Source of the DNA: Halichondria panicea
Taxonomy: Eukaryota; Porifera; Demospongiae; Suberitida; Halichondriidae
Direction of reading: 5' to 3'
Length of the DNA: 64,000 nt
Assembly: GCF_963675165.1 (NCBI RefSeq)
Contig: NC_087377.1
Coordinates: 9,007,122 to 9,071,121, forward strand
Below are positions 38,790 to 56,572 of this stretch, in pieces. Positions within the stretch are counted from its first letter, which is position 1, and each line of letters starts with the position of its first letter. The notes under the pieces are model-generated. The model saw nothing but the letters and a program-made list of their open reading frames with translations. It did no database searches and was not told the origin of the DNA. The position numbers were made by a program, and so were the translations under genes.

Positions 38790-40196
38790 TGCCCTTTGCA
38801 GACGTAGCAACATCAGAGGTAGATTTAGTCTCGATCGTCAGCAGCTAGTAGCTGCATGGATACATATAAAACACAATACGGAATGGGACTGGGCAAAAAA
38901 CTACAACCTTTGACTCCCAGAGTGCCTACTGTACGTACTGTAACAGTCTTGTGTGGTGGTTTACCCCCTCATTTCTGGGTGTCCTCCTACACTCTGAAAA
39001 TTCCCTGTGCTAGCTGGTGGAGTTGGATCACGGCGAAGATCGTGATCACGTGACCTTGCTCCAGATATTCGAAAGTGCAAGTCGATCATCTGAGCCTAGG
39101 AAAATGATTTTACTATTGTTACATTGTGCCTGATTATTATTAAAATGTTTTGTATACTCTATAAATGATGCATGAGCGCCAGCAAGTTGTGGATTCTACC
39201 TGTCAGTGGATCTAAACTAGATCTATACTACCTGTATGTTCATAGGCAACCGTCTTTGGCTATTAATTTAACCATGAATAGACTAGATATACAAGTAACT
39301 TACCATTTTTATGTGCTGTATAAAAGAGAAAAGTGACCTTTGTACGATTGTCCGGTTAATTGATCATAACCGCAATGTCTGATTTATTGATCGAGATACC
39401 TTCACCAGTTCTAGCCTCCTTCGCAGGCCTTCCTTTTTCAGTTATAATTTTCATTTGCTGTATCATTTGCGGACAAAAAAATCAGCATATCAATTTTGTG
39501 AACAGGAAAATGATCACAATTAAAAAAAAGTATTACATCTATCTACAATCAAGCTGTGTATGTACCAGTCTCTGCCAACTATCTCCAAACTACCCTAGAC
39601 TGTCTCAGATTTAGTTCTATCACCCCTGTCCCGAAAAGAAACTTGCTATTCACCTCATATATCCCTGATTTTCAACCTTGCTGCTCTTGAGCGGGTTTAT
39701 TAAGCTCCAATAAAGCTTAGCAAGCCTTAAAGGCTTCAAACTACTGCTAAATAATAGTAAATCCTGAGCAGAATCAGCTTTGAACAAGAAAAGTTCTAGA
39801 AAACTAGATTATGAATGACAGTCCAACAAGTGGGCGGGGCTCACTTACTAGACACACTATAACTACTAGTGCAGCCACATCCAGAACTGTGCAGTGATGC
39901 TACTGCATGCTGGTCTATCTGGGACACCACAGTACTCACATCTTCCATGTAGGAAAACTTGTATTCATTGTTGTTTTTGCACTGAAAATCAGATTCACGC
40001 TATTAATTGTTGTCTCAGAGTCTGCATGGGCTTAAATTATTGTGAATAAATGTGCCTCCTTCAATGGCAGCAGGGCTGTAACAGGCCCATATTTTTTTTC
40101 CTAAATCGGGAAGTTGGCACCAGTCCTATGCATTCTTTTACACATTACTAACTTTCATGCTGTAGAAGTCCAAAGGCTGCTTGTAGTATCCACATC

Positions 40197-40235
<39 letters not shown>

Positions 40236-40369
40236 TTTCAGTAGTGCTGAACAAAAATGAATAAAGAACTGAGTATACTAGTAAGGAATAGAGCACACTG
40301 CCAGTCTTTGACTTCTTAAAAGTCTAGCTGGAGTACGTACTATACTACAAATAAGGATTTTTAATTAAA
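38790..40369. other. Gene-free spacer; (ATT)n microsatellite
   Basis: 38780-38990 is the diverged copy of 28448-28600. A lone CTAGCCTCCTTCGCAGGCC end lies at 39411. About 40197-40232 is an (ATT)n microsatellite. No exon is recognised. Confidence 0.5.
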
Positions 40370-40735
40370 TTAAATAATACAATTGGAGCAAGGGCAAATC
40401 ACATGATAAGTACATAGTTTGTCTGGGTCAAAATTTGTATTGAAATAATCCCAGAAGAAATTGAAGAGGAGTCTCTCTATTCTCCGGTACGGCATTTCCA
40501 GATCCAGGCTTGGCATTGCATTCCAAAGGCATACTACTCTATTGAAGTAATAGTGTCGTGTTTTGTTCAATCTGGTGAAATTGTGTGACAGTTTTAGGTT
40601 GCTACCGAGCCTGGTTGATGTAGTGACAAAGTGAACATGGTCGCGTATGTTGAAATTATCTTGGGGCTGCTTTAGGTGTTTGACTAGGAACATGATATCC
40701 CCAGCTCCAGCCAGTGAGAGTTTTATTAGCCCTAG
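40370..40735 (-). pseudogene. LINE reverse transcriptase C-terminal end, 5' truncated
   Basis: The reverse frame reads DLVMFLVKHLKQPQDN-type sequence (MFLVKHLKQPQDNFNIRDHV), then STRLGSNLKLSHNFTRLNKT, RHYYFNRVVCLWNAMP and a stop at 40370. The order (FK/KHL...D...F...TRS...L......R...YFNRVV.LWN.LP) is the usual end of Jockey/CR1-type non-LTR ORF2 proteins. Only the extreme 3' part is left, as in 5'-truncated copies. Confidence 0.65.
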
Positions 40736-41028
40736 GGCTTGAGGGCTTCTAAGTCATGTAGAAACTAAACAGTGTCTAAGAATTTTATATCATAGTGTCT
40801 AGATGGATTTGCTCCTAGCCATGAATTGTTATCTAATCTTTGCTACATGATTGTAAGTGTTTCTCTATAAGTGAAGTACATGCATGATTGTCTAGTACAC
40901 AATTTTCTAAATTGGATAGAACACTTCCTCTAACTAATCAAATTGCACTATTTATGGCTATAAGAACATGCTCTAACATTACATAGATAGTTTGTCTTCT
41001 AAACCTAATAGTATATAGATCTGCAACA

Positions 41029-43551
41029 ATGTCCCTACTTCCATCTATAGGTGAAATATCTCAACAACACAAACGTCGAAAATTACAGACCTCATCCCTT
41101 CTCTCTTCTTACGAATCACTGGCTTCAATCGACCTCAACACATGGAGCACACTCAATAAGTTGAGCAGAGAAGTGAAAGAATCTTGGTTGGTAGCTAAGT
41201 TTGGGTTTGTACTTGTGAATGAGGTGTGCCTTTTACTGCGTTCTATCTCTGGCAATGTTACTGATTCCGAAAAAAAAAGTATCTTGTGTAACTGTGACCT
41301 CTCTCTACCTGGTGTCCAACAGGAAAGTATAGAAATGGTGGCTGAATTTGTCGATAACCACTGCCCACACCTTGTACGATTTACTCCGAATAACTACCCT
41401 CCATTGTTGACTCCACCCACAAACACCTGTTTTGACTGTGACCGACCATTGGTGTCTAATCATTCTTGCCATGTGAGTTTTTTATTGGCTAAACTATTAT
41501 TTTTATCCTAAACAATATTTTCAGATAAAGTGTTACTCTCTGAATGGTTTTGTCAGAGGAAGAAAGTGTACGCTAAGGTGTAAAGCTTGCAACATAACTT
41601 ATAACTATGCTCACTTTGGAAACAAGTCTGAGAATGGATTCCGTATGTACTCCCAAACTCAAACATATGTTGAAGTGTCTGACACCGTTTATTTTTCAAG
41701 GGATTTGTTGGAGTGGCAGTGTAGCCTTGCGTAAGTGAACAATGTTTAGTACTTATAGCAAAACTGTTTCATGAATAAATAATGTCCATCTCAACATAAT
41801 TATTTGTCCTGTAGTAATCACTCTTGGGTTTCCTTTCAAGGGTTTGCTGAAAGTTACAATACTGCTTTAGAGATACCACCAGATGAAGGTATAAATAGAG
41901 AAGCAAATAATTTATGTCTATAGATAAATAATGGTGTTCAAGTACAGAGCTTAGTCCCTATATTGTTGGGGAAGCCTTCTATAATGGAGAAGTGGAGAAT
42001 GAGTTGAGACGAGTCAATAAGATCGACTATCGTTTCCATAAAGACAGTGAGAGAGAGGAGTGTATGGAAAGGATTGAAGAAGTAAGGCGGCAATCTATAT
42101 ACCACCACAAAGAAGACACGTGTACTGCTGAATGCAAGAAAAGAGGTAATTATAGTGCATGACTGTATAATTATTATTGAACCCAATAGGTTGTGGTCAA
42201 CTGTGGGTTACAGATGGAATTTGGAAGACTGTTTTCCCACACTGCATGTTCAAAGTTGAGGTGATGGGTGGCAACTTATTCATTTCCACAAACATTATAG
42301 TTACATTGTAATTTGTAATTTCAAAACCTTTGCAGCAAATCAGTGATGGAATTCCAGCTCTCAATTTACCTGATGTGTGTACAAACTCCCCAATTCGCAA
42401 TAAGGCGTTTTGCGAGGAACACTGTCTTTTGCTACAGAATGAAGCTCCTGATGTACCTATTGATCTGAGACAGTTTCTCAAATATTGTGGTGCTCAAGCA
42501 GTTGGTAATTTAAGATACAGTGGTACAATTATTTACTTACACGATTTAATTAGAAAATGAAGAGGAGTGTGAGGGTGACACTGATACTGTTGATGCAGTT
42601 GTGAACTCTATTAAAGTCAATACAAACCAATTTGGAACATCTGCTACCACCTCACAAGGTATGTAATTATGTAGAATTCTCTATTACTTTTATTGAACTT
42701 TATCCTAGGTACTGCAGCTTTAATTGAGAAGCATCCTGAACTAGTACGAAGTACTGTGTATGATGACCCTAATGAACGAGTTTGCAGGAAAGATACGGGT
42801 AAATCCAAACGGTTGAGGAAGTGGTCTAGAGGGCACCAATTTGTCATCAGAGGGGGTGGTCATATTGACACTTGGCAACCATTGTACAGGTACACGCCAT
42901 GCATTCACATGACCCTTTTTTCCTGCATGTATACATTTTAGCATAATAGCTACATTATACTGAACTGTAATAGCTAGTGCCTATAATTATAAGTACTAAC
43001 CCTCCACTGTTGACATGAATAGAAACTATGCATGTATAAAACAAATGCACTCTATATATAATTTATATATACCTATATATAGGTCTGAATCGCCATCACA
43101 AGTTTTCTTAATTTTGATTCAATGGCTGCTGTCTCTAGCTAAGTCTCGTGGTGGTATTGGGAAGCCTATCTCATTGGCCTATGACAACATGTGCAATTTA
43201 GCAAAGCTGAAGGCTGCTCGTGCTCCTCTACCATTTACTCCGCCATTGGACCGTTTGTGGCTTGATGTCAACAAAATCATTGATGTGTTTCATTTTCAAA
43301 ACCATGTGTCTCCAGATTGTAAATTAAAGTTTTCTCCTGCTGAACTGAAGAGCGAGAATCCTGACTTCAATACACAGGCTGGGGAGCAGACATTTGTTTG
43401 GGTACATCGGTTTAGTCACATTCTGTGCTCAATGAACAAGGTTCACCACCTTTTTATCTCCACCGAATGGTGTTAAGGCAAAACGAGTATACCAGCAAGT
43501 GCTATGCTAGAGGAAAAAAGCCAATTCTCCCAAAAGGAACTGCAAAGTAAC
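41029..43551 (+). CDS. KDZ-type transposase with cysteine clusters (9 exons, one frameshift)
   Basis: Start ATG at 41029. Exons with matching phases are 41029-41472, 41525-41730, 41815-41888, 41948-42145, 42190-42260, 42336-42504, 42554-42658, 42709-42889 and 43083-43551, all GT-AG with introns of 44-193 bp. An N-terminal helical part is followed by a zinc-cluster region (CFDCDRPL...KCTLRCKACNITYNY), then NKAFCEEHC, resembling the CxC5/CxC6 clusters described with KDZ transposases. The catalytic half has HIDTWQPLYRSESPSQVF, YDNMCNLAKLK, IIDVFHFQNHVSPDC and NTQAGEQTFVWVHRF (likely D-D-E). At 43450 a run of five T puts the reading out of frame; the next frame continues YLHRMVLRQNEYTSKCYARG to TAA at 43551. 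Otherwise intact, unlike its neighbours. It could be a host-retained transposase. Confidence 0.7.
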
Positions 43552-44371
43552 TGTTTTAGAAGTAAATTGTTTTGCATTGCTTATACATGTGAATGTGTTG
43601 AGATATACATGCAGTCACCTAATTAGCAATTACTATCACTTTACTTTATATGATACCTATATACGACTAGAAAAACATTTGCAATGTGAAAAATTGCTAG
43701 GATTGGCCAGGGGAACCACAAAAAAGCGTGGAAACAAGAAATCCGACGAGAGCATAACTCCAATCCTTTACAACGTCAATCACATGTACTGGTAGTTTTC
43801 CCATGTTTTCCCAGCCAATATGCCACGCAATTTTTACTCAGTGGAGTGATGACCAATCCCTATATATTTATTATACATCCATTTTGGAATGTGCGGGCAT
43901 ATAATCATGATGATTTGTGATGAATTGATGTTCCTAATACATGCAGTGTTGAGCACAGGTACACACAGTCCATGCGTAGTAACATGCACGGACCTTACTG
44001 GTGACCTGCATGGAATGATTTGGTGGATGTTCAATGCGCATTGAGTGTCTAGTGTGGACAGGCCTTTAGTCAGTCAGACAACGAGCGGTGAAACGTCGAA
44101 ATAGTGCAATTTTTAAAATGACAATATTCATACGTTCATGGATTATGAAATGAGAGATACAAAGAGAGAAAAGGCTAAATAAACTATCTGTCCATTCAGT
44201 TTTGATGTGGCCTTTCCCTGCAGAGATAAAACAGTTTGAACATGAGTCAAAATAAGTGAAATATTGCTAAACACGGGCAAACCCACTGCCAATCCTATGT
44301 AAAACCTACTGATCTAAGTTGATTGTAAATATTGGCTGTATTAAATATTGAAGTGGTGGGTGTAGATATGT
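43552..44371. other. Spacer between the KDZ and helicase genes, with foldback copy
   Basis: 43668-43790 is a third copy of the inverted-end sequence at 36718 and 37645 (AAAAACATTTGCAATGTG..., AACTCCAATCCTTTACAACG). The remainder shows no gene; a promoter for the downstream gene is expected here but not identified. Confidence 0.55.
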
Positions 44372-47300
44372 TTGAGAAGGGCGGAGTTTACGACTCATGT
44401 GCATGACCGCTGTGCGCAGCATCTAAAACAGTGTTGTCTCTCTAGCACACTAGTACTGCAAGCTGCTTGTGCACATAGATCGATCAATTCAATGAGGCTA
44501 GTGCAGGAAAACCACAGCATTGGCTACTGGAAAGAAAAGAGTGGTCCTGCCAGAAAATTCTATAAGCTTACAAATTTCAGTTTGAGGCTATTGAAGCATG
44601 TCCGAGCACCAGAGGAGCTACCACATTTTTCTGGATTTGTAGTGGAAGTGACCCAAAAGTAGAGGTACCGTGGTGAAGTAAACGAAAGTTCAAGCGATAT
44701 CTCAAAAAGGTAACGAATGCATGCATGCATTTTTGCTTATTCAGTTATTTATTGTATAATACAGGTTGGCATTCATACCATGGTACAAGATACCCAACAC
44801 AGAACAACTTCTGCAATATCTCAGTCCTGCTATTCCGTCAGGGGCATTATCTTCACAACTCTCACTCTCTCAAACAAAGTCATTATTGATGCAGCTGTGT
44901 CAAGAGTTTTTTGAGTAAGCTATATTTTTTAGTGTAAGGAATCCATGCAATGACTATAAGTATTATAATTATACCTGTGATGATTTTACTGCTACATCTA
45001 GACACTAGTTGATAGTATTTATATACATGGGAAGTATACGTACATGCATGGGAAAAGCGCCTCAGAGCAGGTATATATACTATGGGACTTATAGTATATA
45101 CGTATGTATATACCTGCAATTTACTTATAGTACACCTATATATATAGTAATCCTTTGTCAAGTAATATAATTATATAGTCAAGCCTTGAGGGCAAGGTTT
45201 GCACATGCATGCATGCGCACTATAGTATCTAGACACTTGCACTCACTGTTTTGTCAGTGTCCATGTGATTTAGAAGCCCTTAGCCACTTGTAGTATACCC
45301 TCGCTATTAGTTGTACTATATTTTGGCATGTGACTTTCATTGTTTGTGCAATTTGCTATAGCCATTGGATCACTTTCCACATGTCTTGTTACTATACATG
45401 CTGTGTCATTCCCCCATTGTGTTTTGCAATCCATTCACTACAAGTACCTGTATTTGGATATGTTATGTTCTATCTTCAGTGTGCATGAATTTACAAATTC
45501 ATATAATTATACATGCACAATATACTTTTCAATATACCTTTCAATTGTGCACTCTTATTAAGTCTCCCGTACCCCCTTATATAATTATACCTATTATGTG
45601 TTTAGGTGATTTCTCTCTTGGATGCTAATAAATTAAGTAGCTATACTACTGTACAGCCATTTTTACCATGAGATAGTTCTTAACTTTCTAATAGCTAATA
45701 TACAAAAAACAAATCGAACTATAATAATGAGTAATCGAAATACTGTATATTAAGTAACATTGAAGGCCATTACCTATAAGGATTACAAACACATACATTA
45801 TGATTAATATGCATGCATGCACATGAATTATAGGAATGAAGACAGTGATGCAGATGAGGATGACACAGAGCCATCACGATACCACCCTGTATCTTGCACT
45901 GGGCTTCAACCTGATTCTAAAGTGTTTGTATTTGGACCCGAGTTCCAAATTGAGGAGGATGGTGCAGTAATTTCTCAAGAGAAACAGCAGTACATTTGGA
46001 TTGATGCCATCCTTCAGAAATTGCAGCGGACCGTGAACTCTCTACCACCAATTCCAAATCCTACTCTTCAGCACCTACATACGATTGTCCGAGGAATGCA
46101 CAGCATCTCTGGAGACAATGTTTTCAGTGGATTGTTCCTTTTAGGCAAGTTCTGATCAGCTAAGTGCATGCATGCATTACATGATCCAATTTGCTGAAAG
46201 CATATAATTATACTACTACCTTTTCAACTGTAAGTAATTAAACCAGTACGAATTGAGTGTTATAGCAATACTTTTCTGCCCTTAATAAAAGGTTGGAAAT
46301 ACTTTATATATATAATAATACCTTAATTATATAGCAACATTTTCTAGGCACTTATATTTCATGGAATGGCCTCTAAAAACATTTCTTTGCACAATGTTTG
46401 AATGCCGCTTACCTGAAGCCACGCTTTAATCTTTGCAAGTTATAGCTAATAATTTTTGTGGATTTAACTTTTGTAGGATTGCTAACCCACGAAATCAGCA
46501 ACAATTATATATAAGCCCTTCGAAAATGTTGCGCTATACGGGAAGGAGGGAATTGTTCAGTGTATCATAATGCATGATTATAGTGCTAACTACTGCATGC
46601 CTTGGATACATTTGCAGCATCTTCCGTGCATAATTATGACTATATAATTATATATAGGTGCAGGAATTATGTCAATGCACTATGAGGCCATCATAGCACG
46701 ATGTGGATCTATTGGTATGGCAATAGCTACTAGCACAATCAGCAGAGGCAAGACCAATTGCGCAAAGCTTGCTATTGCGATGTGTGGAAACTATCCCAAA
46801 GGATGCGCAGGCTATCTCACTGATAGTATGGCAAGGGGTCACTTGAGTGGCAGTCTTCCATTTCTGTACGATGATCCCAGCAGCGATACTGTCTTGAAGC
46901 CCCTCCTCATGAATTCATTTGGTGGGACAGAAATAGGTACTAAGAAGGCACAGTTTTCTGCCAGGTGTTCTCCCATCGTCACGTGCAATGAGTTCGTTAT
47001 GGAAAAATTGGCTCAAGCAGATGATCGGTTAGTACATGCGGACATGGTGGGAGGATCCCATATTTTATACAGGAGGTTCCAATGTATATAAATAATTATA
47101 CATAATTATACATTTGCATAATAATATTATATATACACTGTTAAAAATGTGGTGCTATTGTAACACCCAAAAGTGGGGTAAAACCATTGTACCAAATATG
47201 GCACTCATATATGGAGTTATTACAGCACCAGATTTTAGTGTTATTAAAACACTCATTTTGGAGTTGTAACAGCATGAAAATGTGCTGTACTTGCACTTTC

Positions 47301-50300
47301 TTGGAGTTACTGCAACTCCAAACTGTGTGTAACTTTTACAACTACACCTACAATGGTGTTATTAAAGCACTGGGGATGGGTGCTGCTGTTACTATGTTAC
47401 TACAGGTACAGTTGTCATTGCTATACTCTTCATGCAAAGCATAAAATATTGCATGCATGCTTATTGCACTTCTCGATAAGCTCATGCACTTGACTTAAAT
47501 GACGTAACATAATTATAGCATGTGTATAATGATATGCATCACGATAGCATATACAATAAAAGTATAAAGATATGTATACCTATATAACCTCATAAAGTGT
47601 TTAATAACTACGACCACAATACACTTAGGCAGTTCGGGACCTTAAAAATAAAAAATAAAAGGGTGCCATGCTGACATGCACGTGGGTACTAAAATGTCAA
47701 AAACATAGTTACTTGTACAAGAGTTTCATAGAATGAATCTACTTCATACACTTCTTTCTCTACGATGACGAAGTAGTTCATTGATCCAGATTCAATAGCA
47801 CTTTTTCTACCTTGAACGAACGTTGCATGTCATCCACCTGCATGTATATAATTATGATGGGATAAGGATGGGGCTCACAAAAACAGTAGGCAGTGATATA
47901 AGTGATTAGGAGACAATTATTCAAATAAGCCGAAAGCCTAACACTTTAACATATCACCTTTTATTCTATCAAATATCCAGTGTGCATGCATTACTGTGTA
48001 TCATTATATATGTATGATGACAGGGTTATTCTCGTTATAATAAGCATATACCCCCCCACACAGGATGAATTCAAGGGCAACAGAAGAATCTGTTCTCAAG
48101 TATCAAGTATTTGTAACAGTATATCAATTTAGCTGTTTATGCATTACATACGTGGAGCAGCAGCTTGACAAATATCATTTGTACTGCATCCTTCTTCTTA
48201 CAGTATCATCTTCAGAACTGAATAAAAAAAAATGTATGTTTGAAGATATGGGTTTCTATTTACCATTAGATTGTGACTGCACCAGTGACTGCATAGTCTT
48301 CGACCAGCTCCCGTAGCTTAACATTGTTCTCCTTTGTTTGAATTCTTTCCTCAAAAGTAAATCTATAGGTAAAAAATTCTATTACTACTGCGAACATTTA
48401 CAGCTATATGCTTGAACGCAATAATGATTAATAGTGGACTTACATAGACATAATCGGTCAGTGGTGGATAGAAGGTAAGTATATACGCACATCTGTAACT
48501 GCTAGTCGATCATAATTATCACTCCTGATATAGCACCTTTGTTACGCTTTGTTTTTGGACTATTCCTTTTAAAGAGCAGTGGTTTATCTTTGGACAGATG
48601 TTGAATCTCAATTTGCGACGCATATTCTTTAACCTTGTTTAAAATAGCTCGACTCCATGAACCCTGCATGAAAAGAGTACCTATAGCTCTTACGATGCGA
48701 TAATTTTGTAAGAAACAACCATTATATATCTTGTATTGTCATTGGAAATTAGTTTAACAATAATCGGAAGACAAAAATTATAATTATGATGATTTGTATG
48801 CAAATGTAGATACGTGCGAAAAACCAGTCTGACAGGAAAGTGTTCCTAACGCTCAACATACATCTAACTGACGGACACGTGCCCACAAAGCCCAACATAT
48901 CAGACTGACGGACAAGTGCCCACAAAGCCCAACATATCAGACTGACGGACAGCTGCCCACAAAGCCCAACATATCAGACTGACGGTCAAGTGCCCACAAA
49001 GCCCAACATATCAGACTGACGGACAAGTGCCCACAAAGTCCAACATATCAGACTGACAGACAGCTGCCCACAAAGCCCAACATATCAGACTGACGGACAG
49101 CTGCCCACAAAGCCCGACATATCAGACTGACAGACAAGTGCCCACAAAGCCCAGCATATCAGACTGACGGACAGCTGCCCACAAACCCCAGCATATCAGA
49201 CTGACGGACAGCTGCCCACAAAGCCCAACATATCAGACTGACGGACAGCTGCCCACAAAGCCCAGCATATCAGACTGACGGACAGCTGCCCACAAAGCCC
49301 AACATATCAGACTGACGGACAGCTGCCCACAAAGCCCAACATATCAGACTGACGGACAGCTGCCCACAAAGCCCAACATATCAGACTGACGGACAGTTGC
49401 CCACAAAGCCCAACCAGAATTATTATATAGTTACAATTATAGTAGTGAGTAGTAGACTTGCAGTCTGTCTATGTCAAGCTTTTTAGCACAACAATGGTTT
49501 TGCAGCAACTTACTCTATAGTTCCGAGTCAAAGCAGTGTGCCATCTTGCAGTGTAGTACATCTAGCAACTTAGTCCATGTAGTACCAGAGCAGCTAGAGT
49601 AGGCCCGGCGCCTTCGTACAGTTAAGGTGCACACAGCTGTGTGCAGAGACTCTCATGCAGGCAGCTGTCTATCTCAAGGTTCACGTGAGATCAGTGCTGC
49701 ACGTATTAGATCTACCACCCACGATTTTGTTTTGTTTATGTAGTCTTGGCTACCCACCACGCATTTGAGTCTGTGCTCATCAATTAATTATGATCATATC
49801 ATCAGTGTATGCCCTTGCATGGAAGAGGGGGGGTGGGAGCAGAGTAAGAGTTAAATTTGCAGGGCAACTGTATGAGTAGAAAGAACACACTATAAGCCAG
49901 CTACTTAGCTAAATACAGGATGTATGATTTTTCAGACGATTGAATTGTTAATAATTATTGTTGGGCATTAATTTGTCCATTAGCGTGACATGCACATAGT
50001 CTAGTCCTCAATAGATGTTGCAACTTCAAACACATAGTTACAGTAACTAATAATGATAACTGATTCATCCGGCACATAAGTTATAAATACTGAATAGCTA
50101 AAATATTGCCGGTACACTTGAAAAGTGCACTAATTTTTTCTTGGAAAGTTCCTCACAGGCCGGGCCGATTGTTCCGTCATCAGTACAAGCTAGTGTGCTG
50201 CTTCACCCCTGTATACATAATTACGCATGTGATTAGAATTTATAATAAGTATAATAAATAAGGTGACTATAATTATAATCTGCTCCTGCATGCATGCTTG

Positions 50301-53300
50301 AATACAAAGGTATAATAATTATACCAGATTCAACTATTTTAATGGAACGGGTTTGTTACTATATAAGCAACTATTTATTTACACATGCAACTACATGAAT
50401 CATTATAGACTGGCCTTGATTTGCATGCAGGTGATTTATAGAGGTGCTTACATTGCACCATGTATAGTGCTGCAATCACACAATTCTTATTTGAGTAACA
50501 CCATCTGGTGTATAGTTAGAGTAATATGATTTTAACAACTAGGTAAGTGCATGCACAACACTGTTTAAAGTGTTCCACAAGCACTTATAAGTGTATAATA
50601 GCACCCTTTATTGTTCTAGTAACACGTAGCAGTTACGACTGCACTCCTAGTGTTGTGATAGCACCATTAGGTGAGTGTTGGCATAGCACTTTGGGTGCTA
50701 TTGTAACTACCCATTTTTAACAGTGTAGTGATTACATGCAATTATATAGGTACATGGCCAGAGCAATTTTGGTGCCATTTGTGTTTGAAGCTCCTCCAAT
50801 GAGAGTGGACACCCTTGATACCATTCTACTGCCGGAGGCAATATCCATTGGCTACTGGTTGAAGAATCTACCCCAAAACCTACTCTATGAAACGGTAGAG
50901 AACGTACAGGAATCTGTTGAAGGGAAGATGGACGGCAGGCTGGCGATGCAGTATGCTCTATATTTACTGTGTGCAAAAGAGGTATAATTATCATGTATAA
51001 TAGTGACTTACAATAATGCTTGCTTTCATACTTAATTGTTCACTCAATTGTAGATTTGTAATAGGACTGGGTGCAGTGAGGTGACATCTGATCACATTTG
51101 GGACCACTTTCAGAGTGCTATAGTACCGGCTATTTGCAATTGGCAAATTGGAGAGAGTGACACAAATGAAAAAGCTGAGAGCAACAACTTGGAAAAACTC
51201 TTGCACAAAGGTCTTCAAAAGGCCCTAATTTCTGACGAGCATATGTCCGAGGTGCGTGCATGCATGTGTGCACATTTGACATACTGCATATTATATATAA
51301 TATATAGTCCTGCTATTTGTGCAGTTTCTGAACTGTGTCGCCCCAAATGTGAATTACCACCTGAAAAACACAAAGGACATGGTTCAAGGAGCAGCCATTC
51401 GACTCCAGGTTTTCTTAAATTACCTAGACAGCCATGGAATTCCTCATGCTTCGCACAAAGTCATTCGAAGGAAGACAAAGAAATGCAAAAGATGTGCTCC
51501 CAGAAAGCGCCAGTATTTCCTTCGAAAGGATGTGGTAGTCTCCTCAAGGAAAATAAGGAGAGAGTTATATCAGAATGCAAAGGGTGCATCTGTATACCCA
51601 GAGATCAGCTAAAGGAAGGATTTATCGAAGCCTTTAAGCACAGTAAGCCCGATTATTGGTAAATTACATCTTGCGCATGCATGCATATAAAATATTATAG
51701 TCTGTCAGACGTGCATGTATAGGTATACCAATTTATTCTAGTGTTCCATGCATGCATGACTGTGAATATGGCTGATCAATTTGCATACATATATATAGAA
51801 TCTTCAAGAAGCTCTACCGACAAACATAACAATTCAGAGGGCTCAAGGGATCAACTAGATGACTCAGGTATATTATATTATACCATCATGCAACTAGTTG
51901 GAGCATGCAAGACTATACCAACCCACAATCTTGTTTTCGAACTTTTTGTTACTTCAGTGCGCATGCTCTTCCAACCCTACTCTTCCCCATTTTTTCACAA
52001 AATGTTTTTTGCACTTGTTTGTACCCTTTTTACTGCATGCATGTATTATACAGTTGTGTCATGCACGTCATTATAAGGAGATGTTCATTGTATATAATCA
52101 TAGGCATCCACATTGAAGACGAATTTACGGATGACACACAGTTATCAGGTTAATAATGATGCATGCAATAATTATATGCTTGCATGTAAAGTATTACTAT
52201 AATTGCAGGTGAACCACTAGAACACAATATTGATTATGAAGAACAACAGCCTTGGTTCTTTTATGAAGGTTTGTATTATATTGCAGGTCAAAATTATAAT
52301 TAGCACGCATGCATGCATGCATGCAGATCTCAGTGACAATGAATTTTATTCTCTCCTTGGTGAGCACTACCTCGAAGAGCTTGAGGACCAGTTGGATCCT
52401 ACGTCTCATCATGAGCAACAAGAAGAGCCAGCTCCTCCAAAGAAGAAGACAACACTAAAAATAGGTATATACTTATAGTATTATTATTACTGTATAATAT
52501 GAAGAACATAATTATTATAGGAACTCCGAAGGAATTTGAAGTGCAGTCTACCCCCCAACAAAGACTAACAATATCATCAGCCAATCCATTAGGTATGTCA
52601 GTATACTGTAGTGATATTGAGGTGCAAAATTTCCTTTTTCGAAGGCAAGGCAGTTAATGAGAAAGTTAAAACGGGCCATGGACGCACCGGTATATATACA
52701 CATGCTAAGCTAGCTATTGGTAATTGTGGTTTCCTATGACTATTCAGAACACCCAAACATTTCTGCTGAGGGCTCTGCATGTAATTTATATATAATTATA
52801 TATACCCACAAATACGATTATTTTAATTATATAAAATTATGTCATATTTTATATACATGGATGCAGTGCTATGTCATTATCCTCTCACACCTGTCCGTCT
52901 CCATCGACTAGGAGTTACACCACCAAGACAGAGGCAATTAGGTATGGTGTATATATATACATTATAGCTAATTTTTGCTGTTTTTGTGGGCCCCGTAGAC
53001 TGGCCGTAGTATAGTTTGCCGCCTTAACTATCTGCTATTATAACTTGCAAAACATATATTATTATTAATGGGGCTGGAGGTGATTCTGATAAGCATGCCG
53101 GAGTTAATTACTCCTGGTGATTCAAAGAAATAATGCCCTGCACATACTTTTATCCTGCACTCTCAGTGCAAAAGAAGCGTCCTGTTTCGGTATCACTGAC
53201 AAAATTGTATGAAAGAATTGGAGTAAGTCCTGCCAGATTGAGTGGCCATGCACGCAGAAAAGCAACATCTACTACAGTTGTGGTAAGAAGGAACCTGTTA

Positions 53301-54085
53301 ACAGAATTGGCCAAAGTGAAGTTGGGCGTTAAAAAAGGTAGCTATAAATATATAATAAATAACATGCATGATGCACTTAAAAACATTGTGCAAATTGTAT
53401 TCAGACAACAGTAAATGTCTCGCTGAATTCAAAGCAACTGGCAAGCAAAGTAAGATGCATGTCAAGTGCCTGCATGTATTGTGCATGTATTATACTATGT
53501 TTTTTATATATACTATAGGCTTTAAAGTTATCATAATTATACTCACATGCAGACAAATCAAATTATGCTGCCAAGAACAGAAGCAAAACCAAAATTGCTA
53601 GTAAACCACGATCGCCTGCAAATACCAGAAGCAAAACAAAACCTGCTAGTCAACCACAATCTGCCAAGATATTGTCTACCAATGGTGCCAAAAGAAAAAA
53701 GAACTGTGCTAATAAACCGCAAGGCAAATCTGCTGTACAAGTTGCAATTGTAGGAGGTAATTAGATAATTATTATGTGCTGACAAACAATAATTATATAT
53801 AGTGCATGCATGGCATGTAGTGATATAATGTAATTATATTGACTCGGGCAATGCATATAAGTGTACGATAAATGCAAGTGGCACTTATTTCCATGTATAT
53901 GTTTTGATTGTGCAGAAGACAAGGAGCAATGCCCTAAGTATGTATGCGTATACAAGAGAGTGCCTCGTGCTTCAACCATGATTGCTTGTCACACATGTGA
54001 CCAATGGTTCCACATCAAGTGCGTATCGTTATCACAAAAAGAAGCTGGGAAGATAGCACAGTGGCATTGCAGCAAATGCATGTAG
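44372..54085 (+). CDS. SF3/DUF927-like helicase with C-terminal PHD finger (many exons, some breaks)
   Basis: Chained exons are about 44372-44709, 44765-44914, 45834-46144, 46658-47027, 50750-50981, 51054-51251, 51325-51642, 51799-51867, 52104-52148, 52209-52268, 52327-52464, 52521-52592, 52645-52689, 52912-52941, 53167-53337, 53405-53449, 53553-53756 and 53916-54085. The NTPase core spans 45834-50981: HTIVRGMHSISGDNVFSGLF, then STISRGKTNCAKLAI (Walker A lacking its first Gly), GSLPFLYDDPSS (Walker B), SFGGTEIGTKKAQFSARCSP, IVTCNE (sensor Asn) and ARAILVPFVFEAPP. This order is known from SF3/DUF927-like primase-helicases. Downstream are a KCKRC zinc-like motif and a basic/acidic tail of small exons. 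The C4HC3 PHD finger (VCVY...MIACHTCDQWFHIKCV...WHCSKC) is followed by TAG. Breaks are an in-frame TAG near 44660, a frame slip near 51597, and an uncertain exon at 52748-52780. No start Met is certain. AATAAA at 54438 may end it. Confidence 0.6.
46145..46657 (+). other. Probable GC-AG intron in the helicase gene
   Basis: The exon ends TTTTAG and the intron begins GCAAGT, the strong GC-donor form; it ends TATATAG at 46657. Using this pair joins phase 1 to phase 1 and keeps the conserved helicase region in frame. No GT donor nearby does so. Confidence 0.65.
47690..48663 (-). CDS. Possible small reverse-strand gene inside the 3.59-kb transposon
   Basis: 48663-48537 is exon-like (CTGCAG acceptor; GSWSRAILNKVKEYASQIEI, then HLSKDKPLLFKRNSPKTKRNK; donor GTGCTA). 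About 48362-48280 follows an ATAG acceptor in a compatible phase. 47840-47690 contains SMNYFVIVEKEVYEVDSFYE. The products are not recognised and the joins are uncertain. If real, it could be the element's own protein. Confidence 0.3.
48850..49412. repeat. 37-bp minisatellite, about 15 copies
   Basis: The unit is CAGACTGACGGACAGCTGCC followed by CACAAAGCCCAACATAT. Copies differ by a few bases (AGCTG or AAGTG; AACAT or AGCAT). It is the most regular repeat in the window. Confidence 0.9.
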
Positions 54086-54437
54086 CTAACACTTAATTTT
54101 GCCTGCATGAACTCAATCTATAATAACAGTTATTGTATCTATTATTTAGGTATATAATAATATTATAGTGTTTTGTGTGCTAGTATATAGCATGTTGTTT
54201 TATGTATTATGTATATACAATCGAAATGAATGATATCTTGATACCATTGTGATAATAAGTTTTATGGGGGAAGGGTGGTTTTTATGTAGTTACATGCATG
54301 CATGCATGGCTATAATTATGGGGGGAAGGGGTTGTCTATATAATTATAATACCAGTGCATGTTATCATGAACATAATTATACATAATTATTATGCATGGC
54401 CGAGGGCCCTGTGAGGTGCATGCATCATGGGGTTGCC

Positions 54438-54443
54438 AATAAA
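54438..54443 (+). terminator. Possible poly(A) signal of the helicase-PHD gene
   Basis: AATAAA 353 bp beyond the TAG stop; no nearer AATAAA was noticed in the 3' flank. Confidence 0.35.
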
Positions 54444-54455
54444 AGTCTGTCAATA

Positions 54456-55020
54456 TATAGTATAAACTAAATTTGTGATCATTCTGTCAATTGTGAACGC
54501 TTATATCAAACGTATATACTATATAATAGTATAAACTATATATATAATTATTATAAACTATAATTATAATTTAGTATAAACTAAATTTGTGAACATTCTG
54601 TCAATTGTGAACGCTTATATCAAACGTATATATAGTATATATATAGTATAAACTAAATTTGTGTGATCATTCTGTCAATTGTGAACGCTTATATCAAACG
54701 TATATACTATAGTATAAACTATATATATAATTATATAGTATAAACTAAATGTGTGATCATTCTGTCAATTGTGAACGCTTATATCAAACGTATATATATA
54801 TATAGTATATATATAGTATAAACTAAATTTGTGTGATCATTCTGTCAATTGTGAACGCTTATATCAAACGTATATATATAGTATATATATAGTATAAACT
54901 AAATGTGTGAACATTCTGTCAATTGGGAACGCTTATATATCAAACGTATACCTTACATGATTCCACAAATAGAAACTAATTAATTTTGTGAACATTCTGT
55001 TAATTGTGAACGCATAATAA
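54456..55020. repeat. Minisatellite, six copies plus a decayed seventh
   Basis: A core of about 60 bp (GTATAAACTAAATTTGTG, ATCATTCTGTCAATTGTGAA, CGCTTATATCAAACG) is separated by variable TATATA stretches. Copies start near 54459, 54572, 54647, 54737, 54817 and 54890; the last, near 54970, is diverged. Confidence 0.85.
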
Positions 55021-55178
55021 TAAAGGAAAAATGTTGAATTTTCTACATAATATTACTTTCATGCAATAGAGATCTATATATGCATGTATTTATCATACAC
55101 ATAATTACATAATGATATAAATACGCTATAGATATACACTATACATGTCTATCAGTTTGCATAATACCACTATATATA

Positions 55179-56572
55179 GGCTATAGAGAATTGGAGACAA
55201 CTCAAGTTCAGGTAGATTCTTCACCAGTCCTGATAGCAGTAGATCTATATCATGATTGTGATAGTGTGATAGTATCACAATTTATGCCTCACCAAAAAAC
55301 CGTCCACAAATCAAACAGTGTATCACTGACCCTAGTTACTGTTACCAGGAGCGAGCACTATCACATTGTGCCAGTGGATTCAACCGATTCGTGTCATGAT
55401 TTTCGAAATGGAACTTGTTTCACTCTCGAGCAGCTTGTTCAAATATACCTGTTATCTGGTGGAGATAATCTCACCTTGAGCTTTCTACCTGGAGATCATG
55501 TGTTAACTGATCAGTTACTGATTCGTAACTTCTCACATGTGCAAATCACTCGCCAGAACACAAGTACAACTGTAGTTAGATTACATAACAATGGTACAAT
55601 ACGTTTTGTTAGTTCAATTCACAAATTGAATATTGGGTTTCATTGGAACGAATGTTTGACCACAAAACTTACATCAAGGTTTGATCATTGACGGTGCCCA
55701 TGATGTTTACATCAATGACTGTTACTTTTTGGACTTTGTATTACTCAATCAAGCGGAAACCAACATAGTTAAGATTGCTAATACTCAAATTGCAACAATT
55801 GAGAGCACTCTCTTTATGAACAATACTAGTCAGGCACTGCACATTGAGGCTGTTGATGTGTACATAACAAATAGCGAGTTCACTAGAAATAATGGAAGAG
55901 GAGCAGTTGACATTGATTTAAACAACGTACTGATCAACGTTCTTAGTAATCAGTTCAACTACAATAGTACTTGGAGCGGAGGAGCAGTAGAAGTGGTATC
56001 TGGTACTGTAGTGATCACTCGGTGTAACTTCACAAATAACAAAATTAAGCTTCTCACTTTGGTGGAGCAATTTATGTTTACTCAGGTAGTGTGTCCATCT
56101 CTAACAGTACGCTGACAACTAACAGAGCTACTAATATTGGTGGAGCAATTGGTGTCGTCACAGGCAGTGTGTCCATCTCTGACAGTACGCTGACTAACAA
56201 CAGTGCTGACTATGGCGGCGGCGGAGCGATTGGTGTTTACTCAGGCAGTGTGTCCATCTTCGACTGTACGCTGACAAACAACAGTGCTAACGATGGTGGT
56301 GGAGCGATTGGTGTTTATTCAGGCAGTGTATCCATCTCCAACAGTACGTTGACATACAACAGAGCTGACGGTGTTGGTGGAGGAGCGATTGGTGTTTCCA
56401 CAGGCAGTATGTCCATCTCCGACAGTACGTTGAAATACAACAGAGCTGACAGTGGTGGAGCGATTGGTGTTAACTCAGGCAGTGCGTCCATCTCCGACAG
56501 TACGTTGAAATACAACAGAGCTGACGGTGGTGGTGGTGGTGGAATGATCGTTATTAAGGTTAGGGTAGTGTG
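55179..56572 (+). pseudogene. Right-handed parallel beta-helix protein, broken
   Basis: A N-terminal part (SCHDFRNGTCFTLEQLVQIY, then NLTLSFLPGDHVLTDQLLIR) is followed by beta-helix rungs (VYITNSEFTRNNG, VVITRCNFTNN). Then come about six near-identical 27-residue repeats of the form SGSVSISNSTLTNNSAD..GGGAIGV (56080-56540), like the Pmp/beta-helix repeats of surface proteins. Two frame changes, near 55640-55680 and near 56045, break the reading. The protein stops at 56572 without a membrane anchor. No signal peptide is seen, so the 5' exon may lie upstream. The family is expanded in sponges as I recall; its function is unknown. Confidence 0.6.

Follow-up and report, generated by a model that had tools for sequence, protein, structure and literature searches.

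Two long split genes stand side by side in a stretch of Halichondria panicea DNA, one coding for a KDZ-like transposase (gene A) and the other for a probable P-loop NTPase that ends in a PHD finger (gene B). Do they form one mobile unit, and if so, what does the second protein contribute? We addressed this question in a stretch of 64,000 nucleotides (the window; C1:9007122-9071121 of the 131-Mb genome). A sequence-only reading had proposed a possible mobile or domesticated unit at 41029-54085, with chance adjacency as an alternative. A search of the genome with pieces of this interval revealed further copies of both genes elsewhere.

Element boundaries and target duplications

Copy-to-copy alignment places the beginning of similarity at window position 39452 and its end at 55324, and these termini are common to seven gene-bearing copies and one 684-bp derivative. 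The interval first proposed was too small: termini at 41.0 and 54.1 kb were rejected, and the true ends lie 1.6 and 1.2 kb outside that span, with a separate nested element inside gene B. The whole element and its ends are as follows.

39452-55324, + strand: the transposon in full; 15,873 bp, of which the nested element makes up 3,590 bp
39452-39474, + strand: 5′ terminus CATTTGCTGTATCATTTGCGGAC, an imperfect inverted repeat
55302-55324, - strand: 3′ terminus; its reverse complement GATACACTGTTTGATTTGTGGAC agrees with the 5′ terminus at 17 of 23 positions
54453-55016, + strand: subterminal tandem repeats with a unit of ~75-80 bp, having TTTGTGAACA in common with the 5′ subterminal region

Genome-wide, the window family (family 1) has 17 left and 11 right ends, paired in eight places, and perfect 8-bp target duplications flank six of the eight paired-end copies. 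These duplications are ATTTAAAC in copy C7, GGTTGATT in C10, CGATTCCA in C11, TCATCTGT in C4 and ATGCTATC in C6; the 684-bp derivative on C17 has GAACAGTT flanking both ends. Comparison of the flanks revealed no target duplication at the window copy or at copy C1b, whose flanks have therefore probably changed after insertion. Recombination between the two (W x L007), considered as the reason for their absent duplications, gave no match when the flanks were compared by eye. The sequence-only reading had reported neither terminal repeats nor a target duplication. It was right about the duplication at the window copy; with the ends outside its span, both features were invisible from this copy alone, and alignment of the flanks of several copies, the check it had suggested, delivered them. 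Candidate transposase-binding sites are TTTGTGAACA in the 5′ subterminal region and the subterminal repeats (54453-55016) in which it recurs.

The right flank (55325-56540) contains an open frame with DNA repeats of ~78-81 bp, by eye a beta-helix-like protein. This frame is seemingly interrupted by the element and continues into its end.

Gene A encodes a KDZ-like transposase

The presence of two split genes on the + strand was confirmed, at a spacing of ~940 bp rather than the 820 bp given before. The model of gene A is based on splice prediction and copy comparison.

41029-43550, + strand: gene A, KDZ-like transposase, nine exons
Exons 1-5, + strand: 41029-41472, 41525-41730, 41815-41888, 41948-42145, 42190-42260
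Exons 6-9, + strand: 42336-42504, 42554-42658, 42709-42889, 43083-43550

The CxC5 cysteine cluster (PF18718) is recognised with an E-value of 1.9e-15 in the window and 1.9e-16 in the related family 2 described below. The C-terminal 216 residues, taken from C7, match the KDZ domain (PF18758) with an E-value of 1.7e-4 and 21.8 bits, under the Pfam cut-off of 26.6 bits, and the domain is missing from the genome's PF18758 matches above that cut-off. A D-D-E set is formed by D316 in LWVTDGIWK, D517 in LAYDNMCN and E584 in GEQTFVW, and these motifs recur in families 2 and 3. The sequence-only reading had likewise noted KDZ-like catalytic and cysteine-cluster motifs. Other KDZ families above the Pfam cut-off exist in the genome, and none of them coincides with the NTPase loci identified here. 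Relative to C7, the window copy has lost a T at 43451, which breaks the frame, and lesions in gene A are present in all window-family copies examined.

Gene B encodes a probable P-loop NTPase with a PHD finger

Gene B was delineated from copy comparison, homology to family 2 and motifs common to four families; the exact splicing of its linker is less certain.

44492-54085, + strand: gene B, comprising core, linker and PHD exon
44492-51642, + strand: core, P-loop NTPase (probable), seven exons
Core exons 1-4, + strand: 44492-44709, 44765-44914, 45834-46144, 46658-47075
Core exons 5-7, + strand: 50750-50981, 51054-51251, 51325-51642
51799-53755, + strand: linker of short acidic and basic exons
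53916-54085, + strand: last exon, PHD finger

The core aligns over its full length with the family-2 protein at 30% identity. The Walker A GK, the Walker B Asp, a sensor Asn and a D-x-R motif are invariant in the four NTPase families. Walker A reads as an intact GxxxxGK[TS] in families 2, 3 and 5, with Ser replacing the first Gly in the window family. The core of the window protein has no match among Pfam or NCBIfam families. The homologue in family 5 shows two weak, sub-threshold similarities around Walker A and B: to DUF927 (E 0.006) and to the phage primase/helicase phrog_8841 (E 1.5e-4). For these reasons we refer to gene B as a P-loop NTPase, probably SF3/AAA+-like; the earlier label of an SF3/DUF927-like helicase is weakly supported by these matches and is unproven. 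Profile searches against the PDB returned nothing for A1 and P-loop matches at noise level only for A2, and no relatives of the NTPase were confirmed in viral contigs. Single-sequence AlphaFold modeling of the window exon gave no usable fold for family 1 (pLDDT 32).

The C-terminal PHD finger reported before was confirmed (PF00628, E 6.9e-8). Its C4HC3 profile also exceeds the cut-off on the NTPases of family 2 (E 5.6e-6) and family 3 (E 2.2e-6). Among solved structures, its nearest relatives are CFP1, PHF2 and Spp1, which are readers of H3K4me3.

The lesions described previously in both genes were found as stated. Compared with C7, gene B of the window copy carries a nonsense codon (TAG) at 44660, a slip of two bases near 51566 and, in addition, an in-frame loss of 18 bases at 50828.

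Copies of the window family and inserted elements

Copy C7 contains both genes, in the same order as in the window, between its ends and 8-bp target duplication. It is 99.4% identical to the window copy across the first 7.7 kb and differs by 0.60% substitutions overall. A 3.6-kb element of the window is missing from C7 at the equivalent site, which rules this segment out as a part of gene B.

47136-50725, strand not assigned: nested element with CACTGTTAAAA...TTTTAACAGTG termini and a probable TA duplication, in an intron of gene B

Inside this nested element, an array at 48867-49414 repeats a 37-bp unit ~15 times, and the element's left part is found in at least 18 other genomic copies at 91-100% identity.

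Window-family copies diverge from one another by 0.6-2.5% and lie at unrelated sites with target duplications. Every copy examined is broken by frameshifts, large deletions or nested insertions. C10, C11 and C4 have in common the loss of 44311-52712, in which the NTPase is gone and the PHD end retained, while C6 and C1b each have their own deletions. The NTPase is missing from many short derivatives, which shows only that it is dispensable in cis.

Between genes A and B lies a probable MITE (43654-44311; inverted repeats of ~129 bp), of which the genome has over 30 copies at 94-95%. Farther upstream, 40197-40753 comprises a TTA microsatellite and, after it, a fragment that resembles, on the minus strand, the 3′ end of a LINE reverse transcriptase; 514 bp of this region are found in the window copy and C7 only.

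The gene pair recurs in diverged families

At least two further diverged families (families 2 and 3) also contain genes A and B as a pair. The co-occurrence that the sequence-only reading had proposed to look for was thus found, although not in the same order: the genes are in tandem in the window family and head-to-head in the others, a difference that reading had not anticipated.

Family 2 is ~60% identical to the window family in gene A and ~30% in gene B. Its head-to-head pairs are located at C3:1.25, C1:8.81, 15.67, 16.75, 16.95, 17.05 and 17.15, and C8:4.86 Mb. In the three copies that were read, similarity stops in differing flanks and gene B carries the PHD finger. A left end, CATTTGATGCATGATTTGAG, akin to that of family 1, is present in two of the three, and neither a second end nor a target duplication was found in these copies. 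Family-2 copies differ with a pN/pS of ~1, calculated from few substitutions, and their coding differences look neutral. Family 3, at C13:4.147 Mb, is likewise head-to-head with a PHD finger on the NTPase, and has relatives at C1:16.757 and 17.165 Mb. No second end or target duplication was found for families 3 and 5. Some of the C1 pair loci may be segmental duplicates, so that families, not loci, are the independent units. For five independent families, a rough estimate of the probability of such pairing under random placement is ~1e-13. Since the pairing recurs in distantly related elements, we consider the partnership real rather than a chance adjacency.

At two other NTPase loci (C1:4.68 Mb and C10:4.196 Mb), no transposase was recognised by eye within ~3 kb. 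Their surroundings include a satellite and RecQ-like helicase fragments, the latter recognised by eye near the locus on C10 (L072:25-1056). Family-5 and family-3 loci have satellite arrays near their ends (L063:5770-6900, L068:2860-3001 and L064:6978-8000) that resemble the window family's subterminal repeats.

Common ends, 8-bp target duplications and recurrence of the pair bear out the two-gene mobile unit. Genes A and B are co-mobilized, and window 39452-55324 is almost certainly a broken KDZ-like two-gene cut-and-paste DNA transposon.

A MULE family pairs with a homologue of gene B

In family 5, a homologue of gene B lies head-to-head with, and ~2.2 kb from, a MULE (Mutator-like) transposase in all seven dispersed, near-identical copies (locus pieces L068:245-2671 and L063:2699-5638). 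The NTPase is intact, with a 285-aa frame that is 100% identical at five loci. The transposase has an 809-aa frame, matches the MULE domain PF10551 with an E-value of 2.7e-11, and ends in a PHD-like finger that falls under the cut-off (E 6.9e-4). This family is likely to have been active recently. C12 and C10 have more diverged loci with this arrangement, and C15 has a looser one, in which the genes are 7 kb apart. An integrase-core gene (PF24764, E 3e-76; L063:7222-8100) adjoins the family-5 copy on C9.

A predicted transposase-NTPase-PHD module therewith recurs in unrelated cut-and-paste transposons, KDZ-like and MULE. Families 1 to 3 carry the PHD finger on the NTPase and family 5 carries a PHD-like finger on the transposase; this difference in position suggests a single complex in which the two proteins work together.

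Alternative explanations

Could two unrelated repeats simply have come to lie next to each other? The window copy, which has no target duplication and is littered with the remains of nested repeats, would allow it. This reading, which the sequence-only reading had kept, is refuted by C7, where both genes lie inside termini and an 8-bp duplication, and by families 2 and 3; together with the estimate for random placement, this leaves it a negligible probability. Domestication as a host gene pair of transposon origin, also raised before, finds some support in the long open exons retained in the window copy, yet is very improbable given copies 0.6-2.5% apart at unrelated, duplication-flanked sites, their lesions, and the pN/pS of family 2. 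Broken copies and neutral differences instead indicate an ordinary transposon.

The role of gene B leaves more room for competing views. The main rival holds that it is a replication helicase that would unwind the element for copying before or during transposition, the PHD finger being merely a chromatin tether. The weak resemblance of the family-5 homologue to DUF927 and phage primase/helicases points this way, with initiator helicases such as SaPI Rep and SCCmec Cch/Cch2 of bacterial mobile elements as a model; among these, DUF927 is found in Cch, and its relative Cch2 has proven to be a 3′-5′ helicase of a mobile element (PMC7581432). We regard this role as unlikely, because the element has no visible primase or polymerase partner, DDE transposases do not require element replication, and the similarity to DUF927 is sub-threshold and absent from the window protein itself. 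Next, and slightly less likely again, gene B could be a passenger that benefits the element outside the transposition reaction, for example by counteracting silencing through chromatin. Accessory genes are frequent in giant KDZ elements (PMC12477816), TET/JBP genes carried by fungal KDZ and other transposons are thought to counter methylation (PMC12730594), and the PHD finger points to chromatin. However, close-range pairing that recurs across diverged families and in both transposase superfamilies, together with a PHD finger that has moved between the partners, fits a direct partnership better.

Proposed mechanism and relation to known systems

We favor a two-gene transposon in which gene B acts as an ATP-dependent, chromatin-guided assistant of the transposase, and assign this explanation as a whole a probability of about three in four. 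Its parts differ in strength: that the NTPase assists transposition is probable to a modest degree, and that gene B specifically provides chromatin-guided targeting is a tentative proposal. Gene A, through its CxC5 cluster and D-D-E domain, would bind the termini and subterminal repeats, excise the element and integrate it at target cuts staggered by 8 bp. Gene B, as an AAA+/SF3-like NTPase, would assemble on DNA in an ATP-dependent manner, its PHD finger would dock on histone H3 tails, and it may open or select target chromatin on behalf of the transposase.

MuA/MuB, TnsB/TnsC and IstA/IstB are bacterial pairs of a DDE transposase and a dedicated ATPase, and genes A and B could be a eukaryotic counterpart of MuA/MuB or TnsB/TnsC. 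The likeness would be an analogy in this two-gene logic, and a chromatin-reading PHD finger has no counterpart in the bacterial systems. More speculatively, an undescribed AAA+/SF3-like NTPase, combined with its own or its partner's PHD finger, might be a chromatin-reading targeting ATPase for KDZ-like and MULE transposases, functionally equivalent to MuB/TnsC; we consider this generalization doubtful at present.

With KDZ (Kyakuja-Dileera-Zisupton) elements, the window element has in common the CxC5 cluster, a KDZ-like D-D-E set and target duplications of 8 bp, as in Zisupton and Dileera; those of Kyakuja are 7 bp (PMC12730594). Large size and an accessory gene are further points in common (PMC12477816). 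In contrast, the domain match of gene A is below the cut-off, and the accessory gene is an NTPase-PHD rather than a TET/JBP gene. Family 5 resembles the window element in its gene B homologue, head-to-head with a transposase, but that transposase is unrelated and itself bears the PHD-like finger. Like the DUF927/phage primase-helicase NTPases (SaPI Rep, SCCmec Cch), gene B is a predicted P-loop NTPase of a mobile element, with weak profile similarity in family 5; unlike them, it is eukaryotic, intron-split, below the profile cut-offs and extended by a PHD finger. KDZ elements, including giant ones, and their accessory genes are already known (PMC12477816, PMC12730594). The open literature that was searched yielded no paper on an NTPase-PHD partner, or on one that KDZ and MULE elements have in common; with subscription papers and Repbase outside this scope, the result is absence of evidence.

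Cut-and-paste transposons of eukaryotes are commonly held to require little except their transposase. If the proposed role of gene B is true, some of them would bring their own ATP-dependent machinery for engaging chromatin. Family 5, with near-identical copies and frames of 285 and 809 aa, offers direct test material for the role of the NTPase.
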